Below, in pieces: positions 359-54,727 of a DNA stretch of 64,000 nt (position 1 is its first letter; each line of letters starts with the position of its first letter). This DNA comes from Membranipora membranacea (taxonomy: Eukaryota > Bryozoa > Gymnolaemata > Cheilostomatida > Membraniporidae). A program made the translations under genes and the position numbers. Location: NCBI GenBank assembly GCA_914767715.1, contig OU612069.1, forward strand, positions 2,978,001-3,042,000, read 5' to 3'. The notes below the pieces were generated by a model that was given only the letters and a program-made list of their open reading frames with translations, searched no databases and was not told the DNA's origin.

Positions 359-768
359 GTTCACCAAACGAGAATAGAATAATAGTTTACGATGCCGGGG
401 ACAAACATGTCAAATGTTACTTCACAACAACTACGTCAGGTCTGCTTCTAAACTGGAAGGTCAAGGTTAAAAACTTCATCGCCATGACAACAGACTCAAA
501 CAAACCTGTGGCACAATACGACAATGGGACATTTTACCGTGAAACGAATTCCGTTAAATATTTCACCATTCTAACTCAAAACGGACTGGAAATAATGGAC
601 TTTAACGGTGGTTCTGTACACAGCATTGAGAATAAATGGCGGGGCGTTGCAAGGGATGTCTCGATAAGTGACTGTACGATTGCTGTAAGTGAAGGGAAGG
701 AGCTACAGGTATATAGCAGTGATACTGATGGTGTAATCGGCTCCGATAATCACAATTATGTAGTGTAG
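359..768 (+). CDS. terminal exon of an unrecognised gene
   Basis: A 3' splice acceptor (TTTTCAG at 352-358) precedes an open frame entered in phase 1, which runs for about 136 residues to a TAG stop at 766-768. The peptide is rich in beta-strand-like patches and polar residues (for example WKVKVKNF, YFTILTQNGLEIMDF, CTIAVSEGKELQVY). The short hydrophobic strands ending in turns suggest a beta-propeller or another all-beta fold; that is inference and I do not recognise the family. Upstream exons lie outside the window. No signal peptide or membrane segment is present in this part. An AATAAA lies near 1161. The exon lies downstream of, and opposite in strand to, the COG6 exons, so a complete COG6 gene would have to span it. 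Confidence 0.55.
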
Positions 769-2395: not shown

Positions 2396-2530
2396 CTGCA
2401 GTCTACCGACTACGGGGCTCAGTGGACGCCATAGGTGTGCTCCGACCTGCCTGCAAACTGAGAGCAACTTGGCGCCGAACACAGCGTCCTTGAAGTACTG
2501 TTATTTCTCAGCCCAAGGACAGAGACAGAC
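2396..2530 (+). repeat. partial tRNA-derived SINE (tail region)
   Basis: It shares the core GTGTGCTCCGACCTGC and the following CTGCAAACTGAGAGCA with the reverse complements of the elements at 3362-3556 and 13265-13453. It is therefore a member of the same SINE family, in + orientation and without the tRNA head. It lies just downstream of COG6 exon 4. Confidence 0.7.
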
Positions 2531-2614
2531 TTGCGATTTTAACCCCCCTCCCCCGTCCCTTCTAAATCCCAACCATTCAAAGTCACCCAGACTGGGAGTG
2601 AACGAACAACTCAC

Positions 2615-6594: not shown

Positions 6595-6949
6595 TTTTCT
6601 TCCAAGCTGTCAATACAATCAACCAATGAATTGCTGATATTTTGTGATGAACCAGATGATTGGTCATAGTAATTTAACACAGCGACAATAGCTGCTTTTA
6701 TTTCTAAAGCAGGAAGTATAGCTTGAGATCCAACAACTTTGATCTTCACACCAATATCTGTGATGAAATTCCCCAAATTACTTAACAACTTAAGCTAATA
6801 TCATTTGGATTTTCCAGAAGGTTTTTGCTGACCAATGAGAAAGGGGGACTCTGAACCTCCTGATTGGGTAATCATATAATTAAACGGAGTTGCCTACTTC
6901 CTTGTTGGGGTTGAACAACTCAAACCTTCTTTCTCAGAATGCAGACACC
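6595..6949. promoter_or_regulatory. probable shared divergent promoter region
   Basis: About 355 bp separate the COG6 start codon (- strand, 6594) from the tentative start of the + strand locus at 6950. Compact head-to-head spacing is typical of bidirectional promoters. No TATA box was picked out. The call is positional inference and depends on the + strand first exon being real. Confidence 0.35.
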
Positions 6950-7784
6950 ATGCTGTATTTCAGGGTCAGTGCAATACAAGCAGGTTAGCAGTTGTGAGCA
7001 AACTATTATATAACTTCTACTATACATGATTTTCACCCGTAAGTGATCATACTGTCTCTATGTTAACTTTTGGTGTCACGAGACTGCTAGATCCAACGTG
7101 GCCGCCACAATCAGTGAATTCCTGTAGGTTACTAGTTCTTATCATGTGATCAAGGTATTCATTCGGCTTCACAGCCCAGCAAGACCAAACTCTTTGTATC
7201 CAAACCTGAGTTAAAACGCATTCATTTTACACCAAACAGATTTGGCCAGTCAGCCACCAAACTCATATGTAAACTTTGGTGCTACTCAGGGGATAAATAT
7301 ACATCTCCATCTCATCCCAAACAACTCAATAGTTGGTTGCACTCATCAAACTCCTACGTTTTCATCAGTTTCCAACATACACGGTCATATTACTCAGAGC
7401 CCAGACCTCACTCAAGGCAACAGCATGCTTACATCCAGTGCTATTGTACCAAACCTGACATCAACAAGGCTAAATTATCGAACTACCTACACTTCATCAA
7501 CAGTTAATTCTCAGTCCGAGGTTGGAGCTCTAAAAATGGAGTTGAAGATACCCAAAGCCAAGAACAAGATCTGGTCCTATCAATATAGGCTCACCTGTCC
7601 CCCTGAAGAACTTTCACAGTTCTCTCTCAACTCCAGCGAAGTTCACTCTTCGATGATGAACCTAGTTAAACAGTCGGTAGACATCAACAGCCTACCACCT
7701 GCCAAGTCTGTCGAATTCTTAGAGGATATAATCAACTACCCCAAGGTGGCAATCAACATTCAATTTACTCATTGTAAGCTGTAA
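6950..7784 (+). CDS. unrecognised protein, 5' exons (tentative)
   Basis: The main exon starts after an acceptor (AAACAG, ending at 7239) and is open to 7784. It encodes a Ser/Thr/Asn-rich segment followed by a more ordered part (KIPKAKNKIWSYQYRL, then SLPPAKSVEFLEDIINYPK). Its phase is satisfied by a small first exon at 6950-6983 (ATG CTG TAT ...; donor CAG|GTTAGC). The exon may end at the donor AAG|GTGGCA near 7744 or at ATT|GTAAGC near 7773. Low-complexity N-terminus then conserved-looking C-terminus suggests a regulatory or scaffold protein, but I do not recognise it. Downstream exon candidates are at 8634-8822 and 8935-10096. Confidence 0.45.
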
Positions 7785-7850
7785 GCTCTTCCCTCCTCCC
7801 CTTCTCCCCATCTCCCCGTCTCCCCATCTCCCTGTCTCCCCCTCCTCCCA
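7785..7850 (+). repeat. pyrimidine microsatellite
   Basis: Imperfect tandem repeats of CTCCCCATCTCCC/GTCTCCCC directly after the end of the open frame at 7784. Strand-asymmetric C+T tract. Confidence 0.7.
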
Positions 7851-8633
7851 ATTCATGAATAGTTCCCTGATAAAATTCATTCATTCATTACTGGATCTGG
7901 TTGTCTTTTACTGGCATCATGTATTATGAGTGAGCTTGGAGATTTTCAAAATACTTTCTAGTCAAGTTTTGTTATGCCGGAGTTGCCCACTGTTCTGCTA
8001 CCCTCAAAGTATGTAGATGTTAGTTAAGTATATGGATAAATCAATCCTTGTGACCTGAAGAGTTTACTGCTGAAATTCAAATACCAGGTGCTGGCATTGG
8101 CTAAAGCGAGTGGTGATAGAATTTTTGTTCTCAGTATCAGTTGACTGACATCAGGTGCTATCTGACGGGGAAGGGTAAAGACTTGTGATCATAACATTCA
8201 GGTCTGATTCCTAGTCCTGTGAGTCTTCTCTGATTCATTCCTTGTAAGTTGCTCACACCAGGTTCGTCTTTGTGGACAATTTCTGTTTGTCACCACAACC
8301 TACAATGCTTATAAATTTCAAACGCTGCCTCTTTGAAAAAAAAAATAGGGCCATTCTCCAAAACAAGACACGCAAGCCTGTCAAAGCAAGCAGTTCAATA
8401 AGGCCGCACCCTGAGTTCAAAGATATATATCACATGTTCACGCTATACATGACTGTCATTATAAAAAAGCTTTTTTTCAAAGGTTTATTAAAAAGAAACA
8501 ACAATAAACCACAACTTGACAGCTTGACATCCATGATCACTATTACCCCTACACATAATGTTTGGAGTTTATCTCCTCCTCTCTGTTAAACTGAATAACA
8601 TTGGTCATCAGTTAGAGATCCGCATCCTAACAG

Positions 8634-12872: not shown

Positions 12873-15800
12873 ATGAATGTCAAAATGAATTCAATCATGA
12901 CAAGATGGTTAATTCCACTGATAACAGCTATAGTATTTATCTCATCATCATCTGCAAGTGGAAGGAAAGGTAAGTGCTATGTGGTTTGTGAATTTGCGTA
13001 ATTGTCGCATTACGGTAATAATTTGCGTAAAGTGTGATGTCATATTAGATGTGGATTGGGCGCTGGCTGGGAAAGGGGAGTTGTGGTACTGTGTGAAGGC
13101 GACAATCCTCTCTCGTGACAGAACTTAGCGCACCGAAACAAAATGATATAAGCATTTCTTTCTGCTGCTGATGCCGTTCTTCCATCAATTATTAGGCATA
13201 TAGGTATATATAATTGTAGGTGATGTAATGTTGGCTTAAAATATTTCTCTGTCCAAAGACTGAGAAATAACAGTGGATTAAAGGCGCGGCTTACATATTC
13301 AGCGCCAAGTTGCTCTCAGTTTGCAAGCAGGTCGAAGCACACCTGGGGACAAGTGACCCGGTAGTTGGGGGACTGCAGTGGGATTCAAACCCAAGACCTC
13401 ATACCCTTGCGCGTCAGAGGGCAGGCACTCTAACCAAATGAGCTACCTACCATTTAATAACACTTAGTTGACTGCCATCACTTTCATTGAAAGAAAGTTT
13501 TGTGTCTATTAATTTTGGATCTTCTATTGTGATTCAATAGTGAATGTAAGGTAGAACCAGTTATGATTTAATACTCCTGACACTCAACACCTATGCATGA
13601 TAGCAGCCGCCATTATGCCATCAGACCACTCACTGCATTAAAGCAGACTTGCTCAATCCGCTTAATCTAGGTCACCTGTTCACAGGTGCTTTATTTCTGG
13701 CCTGATGGAAGGTTTTGTGATAGGCTGTGTCATTGATTGCCTATTCAGCTTTAGTGTAGGTCATTGTCCACATTAATCATCCGCTCTGACTTTACTGTGA
13801 GGTGTAAATATTTGTCTAGGTTAGATGTTGTGTAGCCTCATAAATCAATAAAACTGTTTCAAATATATAAACTGTAAATGACCAATAATCATACTAAGCA
13901 ATTTTAGCAAGGGATTATAAGCTTCTTTTTTTTTTCTATGCACTAGGTCTTATTTGACCACCCTATTTATCGGGCCCCCTTAAGCTCGGGTGGCTTGTGT
14001 GGGGTAGTACCCTATACCCTTGCCCGCCGTTGCCGGCTACTCTTTTTTCGAAGAGGCAGAGGGGGATCTTTATACTGCATGCAAGCACACAGTAGACCTC
14101 CTGTATTTATGGTCCTGATCCGAACAGACCTGGCTAGGATGAATGGCTTGCCAGTGCCAAATCAGAAATGACAGCCGGCGCTCGGGAATCGAACCTGGAT
14201 CATAAGATCACAAGTCCATACCCTTAACCGTCTGACCACTCCTGACTCCATAGCAATGGGGGGGGGGGAGGGTTTACTGTGGCTATCCTAGATTTGCGGC
14301 CCCATGTTTTCTGTTGATAAATTTAGTAAGTTTCAATGTTGCAATAAACACTGCAACATGTCACGATCAATTTGGAATGTGATTATTCATGATGTCGCAT
14401 TTGATCACTACAAGCTGCTAAATCTATGGCAAACTCCTTGCTTACTGTATTCCATTAATAAAGGACAACCCTGAATAAAGGCCGTTGCTGTAATACGATC
14501 AGATATCTTTGTACTTTGTCTTCCGTCTTGATGTATCTTTATTGTTGAGTCTGAAGTTGAAATATTTATTTTTAAGTTCATGACTGCTCTTGTCAGAGAG
14601 ACGGAAACAAATATATTCAGTTAGCGGAGCAAAAATGTGAGAAGTTCACTCAGTATGACAATGTGACCAGACTGACACACACACACAGCTGTCCTGAAGG
14701 ACACAGATTTAGTGTGGGGACATGTGTCTGTGAGCGTTCTCAAGAGGTACCCTGTGAAGGTTGTGGGCCACCAGGTAGGCATCTTATTTGTATTATGTAA
14801 ATTTTTCGGTAGGCATGGCAAGATAATCAGATTGAAGAGGATGTGGTGATAGTTGATCGATTCTATGGTTTTTGATGATCATTGTACTGTCTTGAGTTAC
14901 GTTCCCATACCTAAAAAGAAAACAACTCCCAATATTACAGGGTGAATCAAATAATGTCACTGCATACCACAATCTACCGCATCCTAATATTTATTACCAC
15001 AGAATTGTTTCAATAACATCAACTGCAAGTGAATGTTGTGTATATTATTTATGCTAGTTTTATTGTTCTGATTTTGTTTTCTGCAGTATGTGAAATAGAA
15101 GGAAATAGGCGTTTTAAAGAAATTCTAGACCTGAGGAAGGCTGGTGAATGTGACAGGTTAGATGAGTTTGTCTTATTTCCAGTGTATAGTATTCAGATTG
15201 AAGATTAACAATTGCATAGTCCATTGTGTCCTGCATTCAGTTTGTAGTTCACAGTTTACAGTTTGTAACAAAATTGCATCATCTTTTTTTGAACCAAATC
15301 ATGATATGGTGCTATCAATGGCTATAAGATTAGTATCATTGGTGTCAGTCGCATCCAGTGAAGGAACATTTCCAGTTGACGGCACCCTACAGGGTTTATT
15401 CCGGTTAGTACTTGTATATGAACCCATACAACATCTGTGGAAAATGGAAAGATGTGATTTCAAAACATGTAAGAACATGAAGTGACAAATACTGTCAACA
15501 ACCAACAATATCTAATTTTGATGAGTTTTACATTTTCTCTCATGTCAATCAAATGGCTAAAACTTTGTAATTGGTCTATAAGTTGATATACCTGATGGTG
15601 AAATAGATCTCAAGTATGAGTAACAGCTTTATTACATTGCAATAAAATAATTGGCAAGAAATAGGATGTCAATAGGTTGGTGAATGCAGATTCACCCCAG
15701 CTGTGACCGTAGTTTTGTGAGAAACAAGTTTAGGCTTGAAAACACTCTTGTAATGAAAATTGCTTCGTTATCATACTGATGACATCAGGGGTATATTTTT

Positions 15801-25854: not shown

Positions 25855-28800
25855 TTTATTTTGCATGACGATTTTTGATTTTTTTTGTATTTCATACAGT
25901 TTTGAGTTTTTATATCTATATTGCACAGTCATGGTTGCCATGGTCCTAATCTGATTGATTGTCTCACTCCTCTAGCCCTATCATTGTTTGCCAATTTGAT
26001 TACCATCTTAGCTAAATTAATTAATCTTGCGATCAAGCGTCAATGACCCATAATCTTATCATATTATCAAGTTGAATCCGCTAATATTTAACAGCAGTAA
26101 AATTGGCAAAAGAATATGCGGCACCATCTCTAGCACTAATTATCTCAAAATATGGTTTTATGCAGTTAACCAGCAACGGCAACTAATCTGCATACAGCAG
26201 AGTATTAGTGCAACGAACATCACTCATTATTCTCACTTTATTAGTTAGGGTAAAATGAACTTATTGATCTTCATCGTGCAACTTATATATCTTACCTTAA
26301 GGTTTCCTGTGATACGCATTGATAAACGAAAGCTTAGTTGTCAAATCGCATTATTAATATTTTTGTGAATTTATATGCATTGGCCTTTTCATCAAATATA
26401 AGCAAAGCTTGGGTTCTTAACATTAGATTTTTAAGAGGAGGGTGATAGTTTTTAAATAAAACCGAAGCTGATGTTAAGGATCTTCTGTTTGAGAAATAAA
26501 TGTCAAGACTTAACTATGACTGCTTTTTTTGCATGACAGTTCTGACTTTTTTGTATTTCATAAAGTTTCGAGTTTTTGTCTTCATATTGCACAGTGACGG
26601 TTGCCATGGTCCTAATATGATGATTTATTTTCTCCTTTAGCCCTAACATTTTTTGCCAATTTGATTACTATCATAACTTAATGGAAGAATGCCTCAAAAC
26701 ATTAATTGATCTGGCGATCAAGCGTCAAATGATGCACCATGTTATTACATTATCAAGTTGGGATCTGCTAGGAGTACTAATTCTTATCAAAAGATAATGT
26801 TATGCAGTTAACCACCGACGGCAACTGATCCGCATACAGGAGAGTATTAGTGCAACGATCAGCAATCATTAAGGTCACTTTGTTAGTTAGGGTAAAATGA
26901 ACTGATTGATCATCATCGAACTTATATATCTAAATGCTAAGGTTTCCTGTGATGCAATTTTTTTAATAATAGTTTTGTTGCAATTTCGCATCAGTAATAT
27001 TTTTTATGAATTATATACTTTTGCCTTTCCACCGTATAAAAGCAAAGCTTGGGTTCATATTAGAGTGGTTGACAAGAAGTTGATAATTATGCTTGTTCAT
27101 TGACCTGAAGCAGAAGTTAAGGCTCTTCGGTTTTAGAAGGAAAGGTCATGAGTTTAACAAGACTGCTTTTTTTGCATGACATGTTCGAGTTTTTGTATTT
27201 CATAATGTTTTGAGTTTTTACATTTATATTCACAGTGAATTAAAACGCTATCATTGCCAATGGTTAACATATATGCATACAAGCCAAGTAATCTAAATTC
27301 AAAAGTGGGAGATTTTAATCTACAGCAATACTGCACTGCATCGCGGTGCTTTGAGCGTAAGAAGCGCGCGAGAAATCCACCTGAGGGTTTGGGGTGGTGT
27401 GAGCCCCCAATGGGGACGGGATAGAGCCCCGGCCGCTGATTAGCTCTGAGAGCGTTTCTAGCCACTAGGAAGGGCTAAAAGCACATATTCAACCCTAAAT
27501 TATGACATATTTGTACTTTGTACTACTAGTTAAATATCAAACTGAGGTGAAACATTTACTTGGCCCCTGGGACTTGTGCTTGGATAGTTACTAAAAAATT
27601 GTGATAGGGCTGTTTTTTCTCAAATCTGGAGGAAATAGTGAGAATTACAAAAAGTGGGAAGTGGGCAGAATCTGATGTGGAAATCTGGAGGGTCCCACCT
27701 ACATAGGGAGACTTGGCAAGTATGCATATTTGATTTTTTTTCTCTCCAATATTACCAGTCCTGCTTCAGCTAGGCACACCAACTTTTGACCAAATCTTCC
27801 CAGCTACTTACTCTTGAAGGGGACTTTTTTGAGTTATGGACAAACTATGGAAAACATCTCTTAAATTAAATTTTGATTTTTCCTCATGTTAGGGCTGCGC
27901 CAATACCAAAATCTTATTCTGCTCGGACCGTGCAAGTCACTCAAAATCCATTAAACAATGCTTATATACTTTTGGACGCAAACTTCAATAACCACCAATT
28001 GGGAATAAGTCTCAATTCCATTTCGCTTCTAAATGTAATGCCAAAGGGAAAAATATCTATTGCAATGCTCAGCCCTAATCTGGGGAAAAAAAATCGCATT
28101 TAATTCACCGAGTTGCACAGTGATGGTCGCTATGGTCCTAATCTGATTAACTGTTTTACTCCTCTAGCCCTAACATTTTTTGCCAATTTAATCACCATCT
28201 TAACTAAAAATGGGGGATTGCCTTAAAACATTAATTGATCTGGCTATCAAGCGTCAAATGACGCATCATCTTATCATCTTATCAAATTGAGATTCGCTAG
28301 GAGTATTTTACAGCAGTATGTGTGGCCGAAGAAAACGCATCACCATCTCTAGCACTAATTCTCACCGAAAGATTGTGTTATGAAGCAACTGATCTGCATA
28401 CAACAGAGTATATTCATGACTATTCTATGACTGCCTTTTTTGCATGACGTTTTTATTTTTTTATATTTCAGAAAGTTTGGCATTTTTAATTCCTATTGCC
28501 CAGTCATGGTTGCCATGGTCCTAATCTGATTACTTGTTACACTCCTTTGCTTTAACTTCCAATTTTGCCAATTTTATTAATAACCATCTTTACTAAATAG
28601 AAGATTGCCACAAAACATTAATTGATCTGGCGACCAAGCATCAAACGACGCATCATCTTATCAAGTTGGGATGTGCTAGGAGTATTTTACAGCAGTGAAA
28701 GCGGCAGAAGAATACTCATCACCATCTCTATCACTAAATCTCATCAAAAGATTGTGTTATGCAGCTAAGCACTCTCGGCGACTGATCCGGTTTCAGCAGA

Positions 28801-28900
28801 GTATCAGTGCAACGATCACCACTCATTATGGTCATTTTAATATAGTTAGGGTGAAATGAACTAATTGATCTCTGTCGTGCGATTTATGTATGTATATTGT
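25855..28900. repeat. array of about 650-bp repeats
   Basis: Landmarks recur in fixed order: a T-rich GCATGAC block (about 25864, 26533, 27174, 28441), then GGTTGCCATGGTCCTAAT, CATTAATTGATCTGGCGA with AAGCGTCAAATGA, CAGAGTATTAGTGCAACGA and GTTAGGGTAAAATGAAC. The first units are about 670 and 640 bp apart. The third unit is split by an insertion at 27271-27729. No protein is encoded. A lone fifth copy lies at 38695-39420. Confidence 0.85.
27271..27729. mobile_element. 459-bp MITE nested in the repeat array
   Basis: The ends are ATATGCATAC (27271) and GTATGCATAT (ending 27729), followed inward by AAGCCAAGTA on the left and CTTGGCAAG on the right, an inverted pair with a small mismatch. The interior is locally GC-rich (27340-27470), unlike its surroundings, and has no confident coding capacity. 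It interrupts one unit of the array, so it is younger than the array. Confidence 0.75.
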
Positions 28901-30878
28901 ATTGTATCATTGGTGAAAAAATCATTTGTTGGTTGAGCACTCTGTTGTAAAATAAAAATACAAAAAATAAAAATGTCTGCTTAAATAATCCGTTTAAAAA
29001 AGATACAGCTTGGTGTCTAAAACAGAACTTCCTCAGGTTTGTTCAGTGCTTGGGTAATCTAAAGTGTCCTGATTGCTATTTGTCTAAAATCATAGATGGT
29101 TTGTTTCTCCAGGGTAATAAGGTAACTGGTTCGGAATTGCCCTCTCACGTTAAAACCTTCAAAAATGAAGAGTTGCCCTCTCTCTTCGAATTTTCACAGG
29201 CTTTGACATGATTGGCCCATTACATCTTACTTTTTTCTTATTGGCCTGTTCAATAACTTCATACTGATTACAATATCTGTGTTGGGGAACACTGAGTTAG
29301 TTATCGATATTGCTAGTAGTCAACTTTCTGAACAGCAGTCAGACTCAGTGGCACCAATCAGTTACTTCACAGACACATAAGACCACGATGAAGAGATGAT
29401 GAGCCAACTCAGCTTCACAAGAAGAAGAAGAATGAAATTAGAACAGCTGTGAATGGACTTGATTGAATCAATTTGTTGTAGCTCTCAGGTAAATAAATGT
29501 TATTTAGTATTTATTTGGTACACTACTATAACTATTCTACTACTCAGTTGTGAGTGAAAAATGAGTAGACTAACTAAGAAGTCTAGCTAGTAACTGTTAG
29601 TTACTATCACTACTAGTAGCTTTCTGTAGTTTGCCAATGGTACCAGTCCAATGTACAGTGCAGTGTAATATCAAGCAAGGAGAAGGACTCATAAGAGTTG
29701 TAAGAGGGGGGGGGAGGCTCATACAAGTCCAAGGAGTTAACTCCTTACTCCTCGCTTTGTTGTTTGTTGGTGGTGGCATGTTTAGGTGGGCAACTCTCGT
29801 GCAACTAATTGTCTAGAACTGTTATTGCTAATCTACTATGGCTACATGTAGGCCTACATACTTTACATTGTAAGGAAATGCCCCCTCTCTTTACTACAAC
29901 TACAGCCTATGTAGGCTGGGTCTTGTATTTGTATAAAGTGTGTGCATAGGCTTTGCATCGGCGCAAGTGACGGATCATTATTGCTTTATGTCAACCATTC
30001 CCAACTGTCTGAGACTGGTGGGGTCACCCTTAAATACAAACAGCAAAACTATATACATATTAGTATACACTTTATTTACTGATCAAGCATGCGCATATAA
30101 GACCAAGTGGTACATCATCATCTAGCTTAGTAGGCGAGACCTGCTTTTAGCTTCGTTCGAGAATTGGCCACTTATCAATTGAACTATGCTCACTCTTGTG
30201 TGAACTATTTGCGAACAAATTTATCTAAGGAGCAAGGATATTGAGCATTTAAGTTGTAATGATCTTTTGGTTTACAAAGCACAGCTCATGCTAATTGAAA
30301 TATTCCCTGGTCTATAATGTAATAAAGAATATACCAACCCCGATCACCAGAGGAAGGAAACCAGTGCAGACCTTGCCTTTTGCCAATGGTATTGAATTCA
30401 AATGATTTGTTGGCTGTACAGAGTCTCAACTGCGTCACAGTGGTCATTTCATTATAATAAGCAGTGATCGGGGAGGGGGGCGGATTGCATATAATATTAC
30501 ATGTGTGGGCTCTTTGAGTTGCAAGCATGTACTTCGCCTTAATTCAGGGTCAACCACTGACAACCATTGGTTATAGTGGTCTGTAGTTGGAGAGTAGAGA
30601 AATTGGTTACTGAGAGAAACTAGACCATTGCCAGCTTGCACACAATTGCAAAAGTTTCCCAAATGTAAATCTTCATCAATAGAATGGTGTATTCAAGTGT
30701 TGTAGAGGTACTAGCTCTCTAGAGTATAACGCTGGTTTCATTATTCGTCTTGTTAATTTGGGAAAAAAGTAGATAGGCCTAGATACAAGAAATGACTCCT
30801 TTTGATTGCAGATTTTTTTGTATTTTAGTCTACATTGTAAAGCAACACAGACCGCAGAATAGTACTGAGAACAGTACA
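28901..30878. other. intergenic, with one copy of a direct repeat
   Basis: No gene seen. It contains the repeat at 29532-29637 and a short G-run (29706-29713). Confidence 0.45.
29532..29637 (+). repeat. direct repeat, left copy
   Basis: ATGAGTAGACTAACTAAGAA, then GTCTAGCTAGTAACTGTTAG and ACTAGTAGC...TTCTGTAGTTTGCCAAT. This is nearly identical to 32751-32849, 3.2 kb away in the same orientation. Confidence 0.85.
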
Positions 30879-38230: not shown

Positions 38231-38694
38231 ACAAAAGAAGTTTTTCGCTTTATAATTTATATGAATTTTGGCCTTTTCGAGATGTAGAGATAACTCGGGT
38301 TCACAAAATTACCTTATATGCCCTGAGTTAGATGACTCATCTGTAGGCATTTTGTTTTGAGTCAGGATTGGTAAAGTTCATTTATTGATTTGGATGATAG
38401 CTTTTCGCCACTCAGTTTGCAGGCTATTCGGACCTGACAATTTAGTTCTTTAATATCATCGGCCGACAGGTGTTTGAAGGTAATTGCCAAATGAAAGGAT
38501 ATGACACTTTCAATGAACGCCTCGTAGGCTAACTTGATGGTCGTAGGGCTGACACCTAATTTTGCTAGTCTCTTAATAATATAAAAGCGTTTGCTGAGTT
38601 TATCTGATACTAGATGAGTACTATCTGAGAATTTCAGTTTCGGAGTGAATATGGTGCCCAGGTACTTATATCTAAACGTTTATGTTTCATGTGA

Positions 38695-39420
38695 TGCAAA
38701 TATTTAAATAAAAGTTTTTTTGTGAAGTCGAATCAGTAATATTGTGATTGATAAGCCTTCGCCTTTCCATAAGCTTGGTTTCTTAGAATTAGAGATTTTG
38801 AGTGAATAGTGATATTTTTTTAATGGACCTGAAGCAGAAGTTAAGGTTCTCCAGTTTTAGAAATAAATGTCATGAGGTTACTATGACTGCTTTTTTTTGC
38901 ATGATATTTTTGATGTTTACGATTTCATAAAGTTTCGAGTTTTTATATTCATACTGCACAGTCATGGTTGCCATGGTCCTAATCTGATTAATTGTTAAAC
39001 TCCTCTTCTCGAATTTTCATAGTTTGCCAATTTAATTACCATCTTAACTAAATAGAAGGTTGCCTCATAACATTAAATGGTCAGGCGATCAAGCGTCAAA
39101 TGACGCATCATCTTATCATCTTTTCAAATTGGGATGTGCTAGGAGTATTTCACAGCATTGAAAGCGGCAGAAGAATACTCGTCACTATCTCTAGCACTAA
39201 TTCTCATCAAAAGATTGTGTTATGCAGCTAAGCACTCTTGGCAACTGATCTGGTTACATCAGAGTATTAGTGCAACAATCATCACTCATTATGGTCACTT
39301 TATTAGTTAGCCTAAAATGAACTAATTGATCTTCGTTATGCAACTTATATATCTAAATGCTAAGGTTTCCTATGATACAATTTTTTTCATATAGTTTGGT
39401 TGCAAAGTTGATTCAGTAAT
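38695..39420. repeat. isolated copy of the 25.9-28.9 kb repeat
   Basis: Same landmark order as the array: GCATGAT block near 38898, GGTTGCCATGGTCCTAAT, AAGCGTCAAATGACGCATCA, GTGCTAGGAGTATTTCACAG, CAGAGTATTAGTGCAACAA. It lies 0.8 kb left of the large transposon. Confidence 0.85.
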
Positions 39421-40657
39421 ATTTTGTGGGCTTAGTTCATTGAAAAACAATATTATGTTCTGCTTTCTTAACATTTCCTGTTTTGCAAAGTAAAATGTCC
39501 TCTCTCTGTTAATTTAGTGTGACCGACATTTCACTGGTGAAAATCAAAACATTCAAATATTATCTTGTGTAAATCACAGCAACTGAATCAATTTTAATCA
39601 GAGTTGTATTTTTTAAATTGCTTGTAGAAGGCTTTCATGGTGTGTTATTTATTTTCACCAGACCACTTTTGAAGAATCAAACAACACCGAATTGATCACC
39701 AGGATCCGCTGAAGTAGGGCAAATTTTTGGCACCAAATACAATCAATAATGATTGAGATTCAACGATGACCTGGATTGTGCAGAACATGTCAATTGTGTG
39801 ATTAGTACTATGCTGCTAGTACTATAGAATTCTATATCGTTATTTCACTCATGATTAAGTGCCACACTGAGCTGTGGTGTCCCGCCTAGGTTTGTCAATA
39901 TATCTTTTTATAAAGTCACATGCTTCTTAGAAATTCTGGTTACAATATCGGTGTGAACTTGCTTCCATAAACACACATTGTGATTCATATTTTAGCTCAA
40001 AGTAGTCTCAAATTGCTTTCAGAGTGATTCTTCAAATTGTCATCAACAGAGGAGTGATACAACTAACAATCAAAGTGATCTTTAAGAATATTCTGTTATA
40101 ATTTAGTCAATCTATTTGTCTTTTGGTTGTTCTTTCAAATGATATATTGTCAAAACGAATAATATAATTGCTACAACCAAGATTATTCTAAAAGTAAAGT
40201 CACACAACCAGTTTTTCTGCTCGGCGCCCCCAGGGGGGGACTCACCAGAAAAAACCCAACCATGCTAGGCCCACCCACAAAGCCACTACCCCCTAACACT
40301 GCTTTGCTTGATTTGACTACATTACCCTTTCCACTGTGTCCGTTGGACTCATATTCACCCGTATTTTTGCTAATCCTGGCCCCTTACTTCAGCACCCCTT
40401 AACACCACCACATGCTGGATGTTTCATTTCTTCAGAGCTAAAGAGCATGCCTGTGAAGATATGGATGCATCACAGTATAATTGTTTGAACCAGTGTAAAA
40501 CCATGCATATATTTTTGAGATTTTTATCCTCAGGTTTATGGCTATATGTACAAGTACAAAAAAGAGAAACAAGCTAGGTACAAAAATACTGAAAGAGAAA
40601 GTAAGAAAACCTAGCTAAAACAGAGGATTGTCAATCTAATTAATCAATGTAATCTAA

Positions 40658-43600
40658 TCAATCATATACAATAGCTCGTCTCCTCCTCTGAGACCGAGCA
40701 CCTGGCTGTGGTTCAGTGTCCACTACTGCCCTGCCATCGGCATCCTCCTGTTCGTCAGGCACAGGGGTTGAAGCTCTAGCACATGCTGCCCTGGGCCTAA
40801 ATGGTTGAGCCAGAGTGTTTTTAAATTCGTCAAGAATGTTGACTAGTTCATTGCTTGCCTCACAACACTGTGAGGTGCCATTGTATTGTAGCAAGCAGGG
40901 AGTTAGAAGCTGGCGCACAGTTAGATTGAGTTCCTGGCCACTAGCCTTAAATTTATCACTGTCTACTTCTTCGTACACATCCACAACAGTTGTCAGGTTA
41001 GGATAGAGTTCTGCAATGTTATCAAACTTTACGGGCTGAACATAATTCAGTCTAGTGCGGCCCACTGTGTTTAAGATCTTTTGGACACGACCTATCCTAA
41101 CCCTCCGACCTGACTTAAAAGCAACATCACCGTAAAGCCGAAGACTAAACTCCTCTGCGGGGTCACTTTCAGCACTGCATCCTCTTTCAGTTCTAGCTCT
41201 TACACGCTTCAGTCTGTCAGTAGACACATTCTCCCCGCTGTTCAGCATACTGACTAACGTGCTTTTATGGACTCGCCCTGTAAAATATTATTTAAAACAA
41301 TATCCTCTCAATGTCTTTTCCAAATTTTTAAGACAATTTATGGTATTATAACATTATCGCCTTACATCTTGGCAACCTTTGTAAGCCAGTGCATGACTCT
41401 TCTGAGGTATTTGCCATACATCCACATAAATTTATCACTGAAACATCTATGGCACCTTCTTTTGATAACGCGATTGAAATTAAATCTCCCTGATGTAAAG
41501 GAGCGTCAATATGGTTTAAATGAAACAAAATCGGAGTTGTCCTCTCTATGTCAAGGAGCAGATAACTGAACTACTTGATTAAAATTTACCAGGTTTTCAT
41601 CTCATGAGTGCAAATACCTAGCAGACCTATATTAATGCTGCACATAGAACATTGTCATTGAATCATGAGCCAAAATCAAACTTAATTGAAAGTGCTATTT
41701 ACTTATTAGAATAATTCTATAACACTAGGTTCAGGTTTTTGGAATTCACCCAAAGAGTAAATGTGCAATAAAAATGATTGAAATAAGTGTAAGTTTAGAG
41801 AGCAACATGATGATAACAAGTATGAATAAAAGATCTAAACTAACCAATATTTGGCACAAGCACAGTAGTCGAGACATTTGGATCGGGTGTATTATCATCT
41901 GGATCTGGCTGGATTTCCATTTGGCTAATCTGACCAAGATGTGCACGCAGTTCATTTTCACATACATTCCCTAGATGAAGTGCAAATGTAAATCAATGGG
42001 TTGTTGCCAAAAACTGATAATAATATAGCTATTAATGATTGGCATTGGAAGGGAATGCATCGGCAGCAAAACTTAACAAAACAGCTATATTCCAGAAAGT
42101 GACATGATCGATTTCAACTATCACATCCTCGAGTTGAAAATCCTGACCAGAAAGTTGCAAAGCAAACAGTGACTTACCCTGGGCATCGACTGTATCATCG
42201 TCTTGAGCTATCTGGACAGACGCAGTATCTTCCTCAACAATATCAGTAGATTCTTCATCATTCTCCCGAGCCAACTCAGACACATCTGCATTTCTGATGC
42301 CATCAGCATTTTCGGGATTAGCCAACCATGCTGGGGGAGGGCCTGAGATATCTGAAAGATAAATAACGCAGCACGATTATAATTTATAATAGAATGAAGA
42401 TCAAGACCATAAAACGCCTGGCCCTGCCATGAATGAACCTGAGATAGTTTGTCATAGATATCCCTTCATATTCACTTTATACATGTCAATGGATTTTTGT
42501 TCTGGCTTTTAGTTCAAATCAGGAATCAAAGGCTACGCTACTATAGTTTTATGTTCATGAGTTGCGATAGAAAAATTCTACATACTATATAAGCATTGCA
42601 TACTCATTGTCAAGGTGATGAAATGTACTAAATCAAAATTATGCATCAAAAAAGGGAATACAAGATAGTTGTATTGCCTTTACCTAGTAAATGTGTCATT
42701 TTTGCTTGAGCTTGAGTGAGACCTTCCCGCCAAGCACAGGCTAGCTCTTCGTCAGATGACAGAGCAGCTGGGTTTCCCATCGGCTGTGGAGGAGATTCCA
42801 TAGACCTGAACTGCTGCTCCCAGATGTTGTCCTGTTTCTTATGCCGTTTGCTCAGATTGATGCCATCTTTCTCTGTAGTAATCTCTGTTAGGCCGTTCAT
42901 TTTAGCAACATTCCTGAGCATATCATTAAATGAGTAGGTGTGCTTGTTCATGACGAAGGACCCATTGGCTGAGAAGAAGTCCTCACAGCAATCACTGCCG
43001 CTGCATTGGAGGCTCACGGGTTGATCAGGTGTGAACACTCGGTACATCTTGATGAGTAGTACAGCAAAGTGACAAGAGATGATCACGCCTATGTATGTCT
43101 CATGTGATATAAATGAAACTGTCCTCATACGCCTGATTGATGAATCGTGAAACCACATCCTCAAGAAGTTAGTGACATATCCTGCGTGCTCAACACGCTT
43201 GAGTAGGGCAGTGGATTGTGAGAGAAATATGTCCACATATCTCCAGCACAACTGTAAGAAGCTCTGAGTGCCAGACACATCTGATGGTGCCGCTCCTGTA
43301 ATTGTGATTTCTTGGTCAGATATCAACAACAATGTAGGAAAGGGAAAATATTCATACATACACCGTGTACATGCAATTGGTGTAGAGCAGGATTCCGACC
43401 ATGAATTGACTTTTTGCCATCAATTACTGAACTAAGATGTTCTAATATATTATTATTAACGCTTTGGCATGGTGTTTGTTTATTCATTCTTTTATAATTA
43501 ATTCCACCAAGAGTTGCCCTATCTTTTGCTGAGAGGACCGTTCTCCTATTACAATAAACAATTCATATAAGTGGATGCAAGATCTACATGAGCGGCATTC

Positions 43601-46600
43601 AAATATCACATAGTTGTCCTTGCAATATTAAAATCAGTTATTGATTAAACTAACCATCATGACCTTCCTGTAGTTTTGCAAGGCAATCTCGGACTGATGG
43701 GAACATTAGGCGCTGTGCTGACGCCCAGTTCTGCCGATCCTTTCTGATGACATCTTCATTTCTCATGCCATGGGTAACCATAGAAAAATAATTCTGCACA
43801 AGATGTAGATGGTTAATGGAAATTCTATGTGAACCTGAAACAAAAAAAATGCAGGACGGTAATGATACAGTTGAAGTGAGCTAAGATTATTTCACATGAG
43901 CCATCAAAATATGCAACGATCATCAATAGAATGAAATCTAGTGTTACAAGAGTGATACAGCTCTATATTTTATTTGACCATGATCCGATCCAAACACCTC
44001 AGACAAACCTGATCTTCAATTATATATATCTATCTAACACTCAACAGTTCAGGCATCTATACCTATAGTAAGATCTCTGTTCGATTGATCCATGCCATTA
44101 ATCAGTTTTTTGCCATTGTGAATGAAATCTTGGTCCGGCAATCCAAAGCCAGTGATGTCCCCATCAGAGTTGGCGCTACAAGCCATTGTAAAGTTGTCAT
44201 CAGGAATGCTGAAGTTACCATCTCCGAATGCTCTGACCATCAGTTTACGTCTCCGAGAGTCTCCATCGGAAGCGTGTCCTATGTACAATTTGAGCATAGA
44301 ATCAAATTAACATCTGGTATAGATGACCCTAATTAACATAGCGGACAACCAGGGAGGTACTCAAACAAACTGCCAGTGTGCCATTATGCTAAAAAATTGA
44401 GTTATAGGGATTGTGGCTGAATTTATTTTTTGATTCAGCCACAATCCATATAACTAAATATCTTAGCATTATTTTAATGTTTAGTCCAACCCAACCAAAA
44501 TAGTGAAGCGAACAAGAATGCAGGACCAAAGAGTCTAGTTGTGACCCACTGCTGTCTCCCTTCCGCATAAAACCCATAGAACCGTTAGAATACCGTTAGA
44601 ATTGGCTAAATTTCATGCCACAATTTTTTTCCCATTGTAGCAAATTAAAATAGTATCGGTTTCAACAAGGATCCTTGATTTCAAGTCTGTAGATTTAAGA
44701 GCTATCTTCTCTTTTTTATTTGTTGATTTTGATCTTATCTAACCAGAGGCACATACAATAACGTCAAGCGACCTTAGCTAAAATAAAAATATAACAAAGA
44801 TGAGGGGAAAGCTTAAACTATTCTCGTAACTGCTCTATCAGATGATGTAAGCTACTTGCCTATCAAAGGGCCGAGAATGGGCTTTATATGGATGTCATAG
44901 AGTCTGGAGAGTTCCTCCCATTCCTGACTGACATGGTCGGCAGTGAACTTATTGCATGTTGGCATCATGTAAATAGGCAGTGAATGTAGATTAGGATGAA
45001 GTGGGTTGATCATAATCACTCTAGCATGGGACCCAATGACGTTGTTCTGAAACGCTGTAACAAGTTGTTCATAAGAATCGCCGACAGTCACCGAGCAATC
45101 TGGTTGACAGGCATGTGTATCCGACTTAGCACCGCAGAACCCGATCAAGCTATCAGTATTCTGGTCCCACACTACAGAGGCTTGTATAGCCGTCTCATCT
45201 TCAGATGCTTCACATAGGACTGGACCTGCAACGAAAAGCAATCATCTTACTCCAGTAATCATGGTGGGGAGAGCGGTCAAACAAATCTATTGTCATACTT
45301 AGGGAAACTTGAGTTAAATTAATTGTAGTAACTATCTGAGTTTATCTCATAACAACACTACACACACTACACTATTAGAATTCATATTTACATCAATTAA
45401 TTGGTGATCTAGCCCATGTGGATTACCAGGTGACGATTGAGTGACACTTATGAACCACTCTGATGTACATACAGGATTCAACTTCTTGATTCAACAATAA
45501 CAAAATTCTTAGTATTGAACATTATTATGAAGTGTCCATTCAGTGCAAATACATGTGACTGCTATCTATACCTATCCTATCATGTCAGTCAAGAGTCAAG
45601 TAGTATATTATTCCCAGATGAAGACGAAAACTGTGATCACACCTCAAATTTGTAAAAATATGAACCAGTAATGAATTCATGAATGAATACATCTTCACCA
45701 TGCCCCATTATCAAAGGAATCGGCATGCAAACCCACCAGTTATGTTGAGAGACTGTTTCACACTTCTGTAAATCCCAGCCACCTTGGTGAAGAAGCTCTC
45801 TTGAAAGCCTGCCTGTCTAACACTGAATTGGCTGTTGCTTACCCACTGGTACACACTAGAAATCTCTAAAAAAAAACCGAACTCGAGTATTATGCAACAG
45901 TAAGATAGACAGCATGAAATTTGGACTGGTAGGTTTGACATGATGGATTTCTGTAAATGCAGAAGATTTTTATGGGATTTTAAATTTGGTTATATGTGAC
46001 CTGGGCTGTCAGAAAGTGCATTCGTGCTGTCTTTATAGTAACACTGGGTCTGGATCGTTAGCTCGCGTTAGCTACACATCCAATTAGATAATAATCAGAA
46101 TGGGGAAATCTCAGCTACTAGTAGCTAGTTACATGTGCTATTTCACATGGAATGGAATGACTGGCTGAATCAGGGTTCTCAACCTATCAGGGTTTGAAAT
46201 TCGAGCGACTCGACAGCAGCATGGATTCAGCCAAGGAACATCCTTGATTCAGCATCGAGGCTGGTTGGTGATACAAAATCTATGCTCTATTTTCTTCATA
46301 ACTAGAGCAGTGAGCATCCCCATTCAATATAGCAACTCATTAAAGTCACATTATTTCAATGAAACATACATATTGTGTCCCTAAATGTGGGTAAATATTG
46401 CACCTGTGCATTAAATAAACATAAAATTCTTAGATTTGCTAAATAGTGATGAAAATCCAGCTATTTCAATGACTTTCATAAATCCTCCAGACATGCTTAC
46501 AATGGCCTAATATCGGAGCTAACTCAGATTAAATCCGAGTAGTTGAGAACCCTGCTGAATATACTGGGCTGGGTCTGAATTTCACGTTTCAGTTTGCATA

Positions 46601-46619
46601 ACCTACCTGGTCCACCCAT
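40658..46619 (-). CDS. transposase-like protein, RNase H-like and C-terminal part
   Basis: Nine exons in perfect phase: 46619-46607 (MGGP), 45865-45737, 45225-44860, 44278-44063, 43834-43655, 43295-42684, 42351-42178, 41970-41845 and 41277-40658 (stop). Together they give 811 residues, and every junction is phase 1. Features in order: a helical region (VYQWVSNSQFSVRQAGF), EDETAIQASVVWDQNTDSLI resembling the first acidic strand of an RNase H fold, GHASDGDSRRRKLM, DQDFIHNGKKLINGMD resembling the D..H..K..N stretch of P-element-type transposases, NWASAQRLMFPSVRD, an acidic linker (about residues 565-605), and HKSTLVSMLNSGE near the C-terminus. A P-element/THAP9-like fold is my best guess, from motif resemblance only. 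The frame is directly continuous upstream across a TGA into the zinc-finger part. Confidence 0.75.
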
Positions 46620-46628
46620 GATGACAAG

Positions 46629-48766
46629 TCACTCATAGAACTTCTTTGTTGAGTCTTCATACCGCTTGCCGTGTGATCTCCTGCTAAGATTGCGGGTTAT
46701 GTCCCTGACCATCGATAGGAGAGTAGTCTTGTTGCTCAGTAGCCCTTTCTTGTAAGCCTGCCCCAGGTTGTAAACAATAGCTTTCGTGTCATTCCGTGCT
46801 GTGCATTCTGCTATAACTGAAGACAGCCTTAGTTTACTTTTCTTCAGCTCCACGACATTGGTTTTCAGAATCAGTGTTTTATGTTTGTAGTATTGCAGGT
46901 TTCGGCGGAGTTGTTTAGTTCGGTTCAGTAGCATGGCATGTGTCACATAACTGTCATTTGTTTTCTTCTGGTCTCTTTTCTCTGCTGCTCGCCTCAACAC
47001 TTTTCTAAACCGTTTATTGTTCAGCAGGCCCCTACATGTTTGACATATGAAGTTCTTTTTATCCACTGCTGATGCTTCTCGAGGGCATTGAGTACTGCGT
47101 ATACACGGACCTTTTGGGGAAAATGCATCATAGTGATATAGGTTGGCATTCTGCTTGCCATATACAGAAGTTAAATCAAATATCTGGTACTTGGTGGTAT
47201 GAGCACCTTTCAGCCAGTGACTTGGTCTTGCAGACCAGCACAATGTTTCAAACCCCAAACCCCAAACCCCAAACCCGATGGTTCAGTGACAGTGGTGGCA
47301 GGCTTTTTAGTGAAGAAAGTGTCTAGTGTAGGTTGTGCGGATTTCTTGTTGCACTGCTGAGCTTTGTCCTTATGTTCAGTTAAGTTGAAAGTTAGTGAGC
47401 CACGCTGAGGCCGCATAGTGAATCTTCTCAGACAATGTGTACATTGTACATTGTCACCGACCCTCTCGTATTGGCTACCGAACTTTTCCACAACATCCTT
47501 GTATATTACTTTCAGTGTGTTTTCAATATGTAAAGCATCAGCTTTCCCCGATTTTGATTGAGCTAAAGCGAGGGCATTCGCGTGTCTCGGCCTAGCAAAA
47601 TGGTCTCTTACGTTGGCTAGATACCTGTGACCACCTGCACTGTCTATCAATATCTCCTGGTTGCAGGGTGAACAGAACACTGTCATACGTTTCTCTTTGT
47701 TGAGAGATAAGGTGACATGCTTTTGGTCCATCTTTGATTCTTGGCAAAGGGTTTCCAGTCGTCTTCGATAATCGTAACCAGCTTTTGCTGCGCAAAATAA
47801 AAAAAAAATATTGCATAATTTCAAAGAACAACAAACCCACCAGTGCCCACACAGTGATTCACAGTCCGACCAAAAAATAAGCTTAAACATGTCAGCTGGT
47901 ACAGAGAATAATCATACGCAAATACAAAATAATCATAAATAGCAGCATAATGACAGCCTAAGGGCATTTTCCCCCCATTTTCCAAAGCAGTCTTTCATAA
48001 AAATTGAGTTAAATTTCACATTAACACAATTTATGCATCAATTGACCCGTTTATGAAAAGCATGTAAATTGAATATAAGATAAAGTGCTAAAGAAATAAA
48101 GGTACCTATATAATCATCTATTTCTACTTCTGTTCTCGGCTTTTTTTTAGGTACAGATTTGTCTTGCCCGTCAATGACCGACTCCACAACTATCCCATCT
48201 TCATCACTTTTCTGAGCAGCGGCAATGTCTGTGGCTACAGTAATCTCCTGATAGTAAAAATGTGAAGTTTGAGTTTGAGATTACAGTCAGTCAGTGTTTT
48301 ACTTAAAATATCATATTTGAAACAATATAATATTAGCTTTCCCACCACCGATGGCGAAACAGGTTTTAAGACTTAGTAAAGACAGAACTGTAAGCACAGA
48401 GTGGTATGTAACCGACCGTAAATAGACCAGATGCAACATGCATAAAAATGGTAGAAAATTAGACAGAGCATGCTAACCGCCTCCCCACTGACATCCTATA
48501 CTCCGCATGCTCTCGCAGAACATTCCTTAAAGTGATGATCAATTTCCTTGTCATATATGTCCACTCAAGAGCAATACAGAACACAGGAATACAGAACACA
48601 GACACAACTGTGTGCTTGAATCATGCCCGAATCATGTTTCAGTCAGCGCACATGGTTTGAACATCTACCTTCACTTCAGCCCGCAGATCTTTGAGTTTTG
48701 TTCTCACTAGAGCTCTAGCTCCTCTGACTCTTATCATGGCCAGTACCTCCTCAACCTCCATCCGTC
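46629..48766 (-). CDS. transposase-like protein, N-terminal BED-type zinc-finger part (frame broken)
   Basis: Exons 48766-48669, 48247-48106 and 47787 downward join in phase 0 then 1. They encode a basic helix (VRGARALVRTKLKDLRAEVK), a nuclear localisation-like PKKKPR, a first finger (CSPC, then HFARPRH), a second finger (CTHC, then EHKDKAQQC) and QPTLDTFF, an exact QxxLxxFF PIP-box pattern. At 47251-47278 four copies of GGGTTTG shift the frame. The reading resumes in another frame (FETLCWSARPSHWLKGAH) with a long basic coiled-coil-like stretch and stops at TGA 46629-46631, after KRYEDSTKKFYE. Without that stop the frame runs on into MGGP. The start is either ATG 48761 or the exon at 49399-49270. 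Confidence 0.72.
47251..47278 (-). repeat. (GGGTTTG)4 heptanucleotide repeat inside coding exon
   Basis: Four exact tandem copies, 28 bp. Because 7 is not a multiple of 3, each gain or loss of a copy moves the downstream frame; two or five copies would keep the flanking frames joined, four do not. Confidence 0.95.
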
Positions 48767-49269
48767 CTATCCGTCATCATTTTCAACGACTGTGATGTTA
48801 TCATTTCATCTACAACAGAGGTTATTGATACATAGGGGATACATAGGCCTATAGAGTGATCAGAAATTCTACTGCCAGACTGACCGGTTGACTAAACTTA
48901 CAACAGAAGGTTTCTATACTACTTTTAACTTTACCACAGGGCACCACATGCACAGTGACAGCAGTATAAATAAAATAAAATGAAATAAATGTGGTAGAAA
49001 ACTACCCCTAGTAGCTAACTTGACTGCAAGGTTAAGCTAATAAAATTCCTCCTGTGGCTGAGAAGGGACTGATATAATATAGGCCTAGTATAGGCAATGA
49101 AAAAATTTAAAGATGGTGTGACTTTTTGATTGTTGTGTGTGACTGTGAAGTGACTGGGTGATGGAGGAGTTACTAAAACTTTTAGCTTCTACCAAATAAA
49201 TATCATTCATTTCTAAATCTTATTGATGTTTCTGTGACCTCTTTCACCACTTTTTACACTTTCACTTAC

Positions 49270-49399
49270 CTTTGAACAGAGTAACAACTTCTTCTGCACA
49301 TGTAGAATCACCTAAAATTGATCTCAAAATGACCTCTATTTCTTCCAATTTCCAACACGCCAATTGCAGATGACAATTTGAAGGTTGTATTAAGGTCAT
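49270..49399 (-). CDS. probable first coding exon of the transposase-like gene
   Basis: ATG at 49399 opens 43 codons (MTLIQPSNCHLQLACWKLEE and on to EEVVTLFK), ending in a canonical donor AAAG|GTAAGTG (phase 1). It can be joined in phase to 48766 (acceptor GGATAG, weak pyrimidine tract). The better-looking acceptor GTTGTAG at 48810 leads to a stop in that frame. It is therefore either coding or a 5' leader exon. Confidence 0.5.
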
Positions 49400-50198
49400 A
49401 GTCTGAAATCATACTGCAAGCAGTATGATAACATACTGACTCTCGTGATCTGACTGGGCATGTAGATCACTGATAAACTAGGCTATCATTACCACAAAGA
49501 GAATGTCGTAAGGCTAAGTATGTATCATGCGTGACTTGAATTTGCGCATGTGCAAGAACAATGAGTTTAGCTTGGGTTCTGATTGCAACTTTGGAAAGGA
49601 GAAATGGGATATCCCCTGCATAAACTGTCTATCAAAGTCAGCTAATAATGACAAGAGATGATAACTATCAATAACAAATCCGCACGCTTTTGGGAGTATG
49701 TCACCAGAGCAGGTAGCCAATCAGATGGCTTCGGAATTCCGAGACTCAATTTTGCAGAGATCAGCTCATGCCCAGAGCTGAGCATGCGCAGAATGGTATG
49801 ATAATGTTAATACTTTTGAGTTATATTTACCTGTAGATGTTTATGGTCCTATATCCTGTTTCTGAAGTCAAGGGGAAGAAAAGATTGTTCCCTAGTTATG
49901 TGTAAACATCTCAGCTCATAAACTTGTCATCAATCAGATTGGTTAGGTTCCCATCCAGCAACTTGTCATGAGAGGGGGCCTTATCACTCTGAATAGCACA
50001 GGCTCTACCCCCTTTTCACTAGCACTATAAGCATACATTGATCCTAGCCCTTTGCACTTGGTGTGTTGTGCACAACTACCCCTTATTTATAGATTTCACT
50101 GTGCAGCTCCAACTCTCCAAAACACCCCCTTAAACGTGTTTTAAGGCCGAGCATGGTGGGTAAATTTTGGTGAGTTCCCCCCCCCCCGGGTCGGCGCC

Positions 50199-53387: not shown

Positions 53388-53792
53388 TTAGCATAGAGCA
53401 TAGATGTGATTGATAAGAGTGGATGAACGTTCTTCTACTCTTGTGGGTTCACTTATGATCTGTGATAAACCTAAAGGCGTGATGACATTATTGAACCATC
53501 TGGTCTTTGTGATCGCACTCTTTAAATCTACATTGAAATCACCTAAAATGATGATTTCCTGGCACAATGTTGGGCATTGCTGAACATGTTGTGAAAATAC
53601 CTGATCCCAATCAATAAGGGTGCTAGGAGCACGGTATAGAAAGCAAATAATGAATGGTTGAGTGTTAGTTTGTGTTAATTTAAGGGTAATTGACTCTGGT
53701 ATGATCGGATTTGACGGGCTGATTTCCTGAAACGGTGTATCATTCCGGATATAGCATAATACACCCCCTCCTTGACCAGTTACTGTCTTTTC
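53388..53792 (-). pseudogene. LINE (non-LTR retrotransposon) endonuclease fragment
   Basis: A - strand frame of about 134 codons without a start codon reads EKTVTGQGGGVLCYIRND, FIICFLYRAPS, IIILGDFNVDL and ISEPTRVEERSSTLINHIYA. These are the hallmark strands of the apurinic-type endonuclease domain of LINE elements: GGGV..Y, YR.P, GDFN, PTR....S.TLI.HIY. The frame ends in TAA at 53388, just after HIYALC. Reverse transcriptase is absent, so this is a truncated relic. It lies in the CTLD intron of lectin copy B. Confidence 0.85.
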
Positions 53793-54727
53793 TGATTAAA
53801 TTATAATTGTTGATGTGAAAAAAATATGATGGCTTTGAAGCATATTACTCTACGTTATCAGCAAATATTCATGTCGGAAAGTTGTCTTGCAGACCCAATT
53901 AATGGGGTCTAGCCAGTCTATCTACCAATATGTGATGAATTTTCATATATTATCAATTAAATGGATAATATCTTTTACCTATAAACACTGACATAAATAT
54001 TCATTGACTAGGGGAACATATCTGTCCCTGAACAATCATGTGCGAACTTATGTATGTTTGCTGTAAATCATTTCTCATATTTGATTGGTCTGCAAGTTCT
54101 GTAATGCTACACCTGACCCATCAATAATTTTTGGTCAAGTCAGAGTTTGAACTGGGACATCAGTCAATGCCATTCGCTAAAGCTGACACAAATATATAAT
54201 ATACTGATGTCACTTCTCCATAAATAGTCAAATTGTGTATTTTATCATTAATCAATGAATTCAAATCAATGCATGTAACAGTATGGCACAACCTAACTTT
54301 TTAATGCTATCACACAATTTAAAGCAACAATCCCTTGTAATAATTATTGCAAAACCAATTTTTTCTAATAAGAGACTCTGAATCAGAAAATGTGTAATCT
54401 GTGTTTACTGTTAATTTTTTACTGTTGAATTTGGTATGAATAGTTAACTCAGTAATGATGCTGAAAGAAAAAAGCCTGATTTCATTATGTGGGATAAATT
54501 AGACAGCTACATGCATGACTAACCTGGGTTATTTCCGTCCATCAAACTAACATAGATATCTCTGGTCTGTAGATTCGAGATGCTTGGTAACTTTGCTGCT
54601 CTTGTCTGACAATCCTCTACAGCCTCCTGGTGATTCTGTAGACTAGAGAGCATCTTGATTCAAGAATCTCTCTCAGAGTTATCATACCATCCATCGCTGA
54701 GGTCACATGAACTCACACTTGAATGTC

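Follow-up and report, generated by a model that had tools for sequence, protein, structure and literature searches.

One damaged core-coding copy among mostly gutted relatives: a family of cut-and-paste DNA transposons in the bryozoan Membranipora membranacea

P elements of Drosophila have CATGATG termini, make 8-bp target-site duplications (TSDs) and give rise to internal deletions of their own, of the KP type; the catalytic residues of their transposase are D230, D303 and E531 (numbering of PDB entry 6p5a). Kolobok elements duplicate TTAA. Galileo, a member of the P superfamily, makes a 7-bp TSD, and hAT elements, for which 8-bp TSDs are usual (PMC3942097, PMC12730594), measure 2.5-5 kb with terminal inverted repeats (TIRs) of 10-25 bp; one of them, BuT2, has five exons and internal deletion derivatives. 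Among the KDZ (Kyakuja-Dileera-Zisupton) elements, Zisupton and Dileera make 8-bp TSDs (PMC12730594), Zisupton genes have 18 and 31 exons and the transposase domain is PF18758 (PMC9297572). Here we describe an element with a multi-exon gene in a 64,000-nucleotide stretch of the Membranipora membranacea genome (C5:2978001-3042000, contig OU612069.1; hereafter the window). The element is a genuine DNA transposon and uses the familiar cut-and-paste mode; some 30 relatives, most of them gutted, are present elsewhere in the genome. Of this class II, TIR-bearing family of the bryozoan, the window very probably holds the coding copy that is the most complete among those found.

The limits of the element were set by searching the assembly of the same genome (339,339,785 bases, 18 contigs) with each end. 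A 378-base left-end query starting at position 40223 gave 31 matches including the window. Eleven of the 30 others started at query base 7, which is position 40229, six at bases 4-6, eight at bases 11-13 and five further inside, and query bases 1-3 were covered by none. The right-end query, which ends at 50198 and whose base 350 is position 50190, gave 36 matches including the window; 29 of the 35 others ended at query bases 341-351, six further inside and none beyond 351. Matches extending one to three bases outside the element ends were put down to chance identity. Since the genome matches have their limits at 40229 and 50190 or close to these positions, the element corresponds to positions 40229-50190 (9962 bp), with its gene on the minus strand. 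It is bordered at 40221-40228 and 50191-50198 by an exact 8-bp direct repeat, TCGGCGCC, which lies outside the repeat in the genome matches, none of which extends into its outer half, and represents the TSD. The earlier note on this DNA had proposed a 10-kb DNA transposon at 40223-50198 with GGCGCC tips. The transposon was recovered, with the ends given above, and the tips were rejected, GGCGCC being part of the TSD and outside the genome-wide repeat.

Imperfect inverted repeats about 10 kb apart, also described in that note, were confirmed. The left one (CCCAGGGGGGGACTCACCAG...GGCC) lies at 40229-40271 on the plus strand and the right one at 50145-50190 on the minus strand; 36 of the 47 columns of their alignment are identical, and both were found in other copies. 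Once the TSDs are left out, the alignment starts at the first base (CCCAGGGGGGG.ACTCACCAG.. versus CCCGGGGGGGGGGGAACTCACCAAAA..), and its local score of 41 compares with 23 for the next-best match of the same query elsewhere in the window. The usual tips across the family are CCCAGG..CCTGGG, with inverted ends of about 45 bp; the window copy ends on the right with CCCGGG (plus strand), in place of the CCTGGG present in most other copies seen. No second copy of the end pattern was found within the window and no exact TIR match in genome_contigs.

To look at individual insertions, 34 stretches were fetched, 20 in a first set (the 20-locus set) and 14 in a second one. L011/L048 and L024/L049 each represent a single insertion, which gives 33 places including the window. 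Eleven places without two clean ends were left out (L012, L015, L020, L028, L038, L039, L040, L041, L045, L050 and L051), and from the 22 remaining we dropped L042, which repeats L016, and L047, which resembles L046 and has the same flanks. Among the 20 independent insertions thus retained, 14 showed an exact 8-bp TSD, all 14 of different sequence (window, L011, L013, L014, L016, L018, L019, L021, L022, L023, L025, L026, L044 and L049), and five a TSD matching at 7/8 positions (L017, L029, L030, L043 and L046, the latter with one extra terminal G allowed). Many dispersed copies therefore share the same paired ends, each with a TSD of its own, as the earlier note had suggested looking for, and inverted ends common to dispersed copies together with a TSD of fixed length are the features of a class II element. 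Neither a palindrome nor a clear preference for certain bases was apparent in the 14 exact TSDs. A preference for palindromic or GC-rich targets was considered and rejected, palindromic pairs numbering 9/56, a value reached by 1909 of 2000 shuffles, and the GC content being 47%.

Two pairs of loci deserve a separate mention. L016 and L042, on C5 at about 19.02 Mb and 18.94 Mb, are the same insertion with the same flanks, roughly 90 kb apart, and represent a segmental duplication in which a copy of the transposon was included. L046 (C7:95440-96140) and L047 (C7:1442360-1443060) are a miniature transposon derivative of about 300 bp; their flanks are similar, so that they are probably part of a local duplication.

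The copies are dispersed across chromosomes; among those looked at, internal deletions are the rule and the catalytic core is missing. In the 20-locus set, matched pieces were 82.8-97.6% identical to the window element; as identities are mostly near or above 90%, activity is probably not very ancient. Most copies retain the first 330-750 bases or so and the last 2 kb or so, about 7 kb between them being gone. Seven of the 20 loci (L013, L014, L017, L018, L019, L020 and L021) have lost the same stretch, element bases 495-7887, and carry a 21-bp filler in its place, which is the same in five loci and one base off in L017 and L018; L023 has the same filler with the left side changed. Six of these seven loci have readable TSDs, all different, and the deleted form itself must therefore have inserted several times. 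Other breakpoints look like separate events. Overlaps of the two matches, some of them imperfect, measure 8 bp in L011, 2 in L012, 3 in L016, 5 in L026 and 4 in L027, with none in L022, while L025 has a 4-bp filler at its junction, L028 a 26-bp filler, and L029 two deletions with overlaps of 8 and 1. L011, L013, L022 and L030 are long, with inserted DNA unlike the window element inside. At L040 and its upstream stretch L052, exons 1, 2 and most of exon 3 are present and the match stops at element base 6433. A whole-genome search with the 526-residue core, whose match counts are lower bounds, gave at least seven matches, of which six belong to the window copy and one is a small remnant at the place of L029. 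The window thus contains the one copy with a catalytic core among the matches listed, and no other copy found codes for as much of the protein. Of the 20 loci, 17 retain parts of exon 1, exon 2 or both, and 12 the tail of exon 11, which indicates that the gene is an ancestral part of the element.

The single multi-exon gene noticed earlier was confirmed as one gene on the minus strand; it has 11 exons or, should a break in exon 3 be an intron, 12, with splice sites picked by hand so that the reading frame continues. Exon 1 (48669-48761) contains the first ATG and shows 92.9-100% amino-acid identity in other copies where it aligns as one piece. It is followed by exon 2 (48106-48247), which has a 24-bp addition in L014, and by the first part of exon 3 (47276-47787), where two Cys/His-rich, zinc-finger-like motifs were recognized by eye, with no Pfam match above cut-off. 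The frame is broken at a (CAAACCC)4 array (47249-47276), 14 bp shorter in L040, and the second part of exon 3 (46607-47252) carries an in-frame TGA near its end. The gene model continues with exon 4 (45737-45865), exon 5 (44860-45225), exon 6 (44063-44278), exon 7 (43655-43834), exon 8 (42684-43295), exon 9 (42178-42351), exon 10 (41845-41970) and exon 11 with the stop codon (40658-41277). Candidate catalytic acids are found in exon 5 (EDET, the first), exon 6 (SDGD, the second) and exon 8 (CCEDFF, the third), the latter two as motifs only; a sub-threshold Pfam match, to PF21787, spans the exon 4-5 region. Nine of the ten introns are GT-AG and one is GC-AG (exon 5 donor, 44860). All donors are in phase 1 except that of the first intron (phase 0) and the exon 3 break, and GC content is 45.5% in exons and 35.3% in introns.

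When joined, the second part of exon 3 to exon 11 encode 1022 residues with the TGA as single stop. Both this TGA and the frame break had been missed in the earlier reading. No GT-AG intron joining both frames across the heptamer array was found by eye. The two halves of exon 3 have their main matches in different frames in L040 too, and a weak 27-residue match there (54% identity) occurs in the frame of the first half. On this evidence, the break may be either a mutation or an unrecognised intron. The TGA region is not retained in L052. Given the in-frame TGA and the frame break, the window copy is probably unable to make the whole protein. Codon-position counts across copies were not used, the differences looking mostly shared and exon 2 showing no third-position excess.

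The nature of the protein was searched for with Pfam, at E values up to 10 for the core and up to 1 for the exon 3 pieces, exons 4-8 and exon 11, the scan thus covering exons 3-8, a small part of exon 9 and exon 11. The best lead was PF21787, the N-terminal RNase H part of P-type transposases (E 0.026-0.12), with at best 15.2 bits for a cut-off of 24.6; its companion P domain, the GTP-binding insert, was not reported in the core scan. By eye, EDET, SDGD, a long insert and CCEDFF stand in the same order as the catalytic residues of the P transposase, and internal deletion derivatives are common to both elements, as is an 8-bp TSD, which falls within the 7-8 bp of the P superfamily. Several results weigh against the reading as a cut-and-paste element with an RNase H transposase. 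No Pfam model reached its cut-off for the pieces scanned, NCBIfam gave nothing for the core and PDB, searched by sequence, nothing relevant. PF20173, an implausible zinc-finger model, matched the same piece as PF21787 with an E value of 0.02. When the core was compared with the P transposase (6p5a), 241 of 500 shuffles scored as high. Among the insertions, L027, the remaining one of the 20, has no TSD. By segments, the shuffles scoring as high against 6p5a were 80/500 for the N-terminal part, 13/500 for the middle, GTP-binding-like part (uncorrected, four tests) and 117/500 for the C-terminal part.

Since no Pfam, NCBIfam or PDB match is above threshold, the identification of an RNase H transposase draws on the layout of the gene and on the sub-threshold PF21787 match. 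The RNase H-like region proposed in the earlier note is thus weakly borne out, PF20173 scoring as well as PF21787; the same holds for its zinc fingers, which correspond to Cys/His spacing seen by eye, all Pfam zinc-finger matches being below cut-off. AlphaFold models of single exons 5 and 8 had mean predicted local distance difference test (pLDDT) values of 38.6 and 42.7, too poor, and were not used. No relatives of the core were found in viral_contigs by tblastn. Searches by DNA pattern gave either nothing or a single match, L001 in one case and L002 in another, neither with a reading frame similar to the protein. Phage records gave no match and Rfam nothing within the window.

Alternative explanations differ in what they question. 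An ordinary gene lying between chance inverted repeats might be suspected, as 5 of 2818 random pairs of a 62-mer and 2 kb from this repeat-rich window reach the score of the inverted repeats. This possibility, raised in the earlier note, is refuted by the further matches of the left end (30) and of the right end (35) in the genome, with recurring TSDs. A host gene captured between ends that are mobilised by a transposase encoded elsewhere would account for the many, host-gene-like introns and for the lack of the catalytic core in all other copies looked at. It appears very improbable and is largely refuted by the exon 1/2 parts and exon 11 tails kept in most of the 20 loci, by the retention of exons 1, 2 and most of 3 in L040/L052, and by the core search, no full core elsewhere in the assembly having been found among the matches listed. 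Both readings were rejected on the genome-wide end matches, the retained exons and the core search.

With a transposon encoding its own probable transposase thus preferred, the question becomes where it should be filed. The nearest mechanism by layout would be that of the P/hAT group, with its 8-bp TSD and acids separated by a large insert, a likeness of layout. That the element belongs, as a long and divergent member, to one of the known superfamilies hAT and P, which concerns its filing and not its mechanism, is a serious prospect with a little less than an even chance. The 8-bp TSD is the one usual for hAT (PMC3942097, PMC12730594), the deletion derivatives are abundant and resemble those of BuT2, and PF21787 is among the few Pfam matches. 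In the opposite direction, no hAT or P model reached cut-off, the similarity to the 6p5a P transposase is insignificant and no P or THAP domain was above cut-off. In addition, the element is longer than described for hAT (9.96 kb versus 2.5-5 kb), as are its TIRs (about 45 bp versus 10-25 bp), it has more exons than the five of BuT2, and it differs from P by its CCCAGG termini, its 9.96-kb length and its 11-12 exons. A hAT dimerisation or transposase domain was not reported for the pieces scanned, although a very divergent one could escape. Membership in KDZ seems distinctly improbable: the 8-bp TSD and the many-exon gene are as in Zisupton (PMC12730594, PMC9297572), but PF18758 was not reported in the scan of the same pieces, which a very divergent domain could again escape. 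Kolobok and KolobokP are also DNA transposons, with bryozoans among the phyla from which they are reported. KolobokP carries a second gene, for a nuclease, and long direct repeats at its termini; the TSD here, of 8 bp and varied sequence, differs from that of Kolobok. With no Pfam model at cut-off and a P comparison at shuffle level, membership in P, hAT or KDZ is not claimed.

In the cut-and-paste transposon that we favour, the multi-exon gene would be expressed from the right-hand side and encode a transposase with a DDE/D RNase H fold. Its Cys/His-rich N-terminal part may bind the ends of about 45 bp, and the enzyme would cut the element out and insert it with an 8-bp stagger. Repair of the gap at the donor site would at times stop early and generate internal deletions, and the deleted copies, which keep both ends, could be moved in trans. 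Broken-off gap repair after excision leaves such deletions, as is established for P elements and others, and the deletion junctions of this family look like aborted gap repair.

Other repeats occur in and around the element. A nested 364-bp element at 49432-49795, with CATACTG/CATTCTG ends and a 9-bp TSD (GTATGATAA, at 49423-49431 and 49796-49804), is not part of the transposon. Its site is empty in five of six loci (L016, L017, L021, L026 and L027), L014 giving no match to the search string. Inverted copies were found near the same place in L018, L019, L023 and L045, the matches of L038 and L018 run across it in the orientation of the window, and many other copies are without it. Copies of a repeat resembling a short interspersed element (SINE) lie at 2433-2532, 3402-3447 and 13239-13344, the flanks of 3402 and 13298 appearing tRNA-derived by eye; GGCGCC occurs at just one other place in the window, at 2471, within this repeat. 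Positions 25870-28908 and 38667-39424 contain several copies of a repeat family with units of 60-190 bp (several of families D1-D15), one group of which ends shortly before the transposon. A minus-strand open frame at 53388-53795 resembles the endonuclease of a long interspersed element (LINE), by eye only.

The many exons had been read as the mark of a new system, a view that the Zisupton genes, with still more exons (PMC9297572), do not support. The family described here, in which most copies are non-autonomous, is a new one within a known kind of transposon. Similar motifs are present in many unnamed animal proteins, which would weigh against a novelty private to bryozoans. No publication on this family was found in the open-licence literature, sought by superfamily and host names and not by sequence, which is weak evidence. 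It is unlikely that the CCCAGG..CCTGGG ends, the 8-bp TSDs without visible target preference and the 11-12-exon transposase with a Cys/His-rich N-terminus, known from a single decayed copy that codes for the core and from some 30 gutted copies, define an undescribed superfamily distantly related to P/hAT. If they did, the P/hAT group would be extended; as matters stand, the element works like many known ones. As the probable transposase has no Pfam model above threshold, annotation pipelines may label such genes as host genes. With one damaged core-coding copy left and about 30 others that are mostly deletion derivatives, this family has probably died out, or almost done so, in the M. membranacea genome and offers a clean example of what a transposon family looks like as its life draws to a close.

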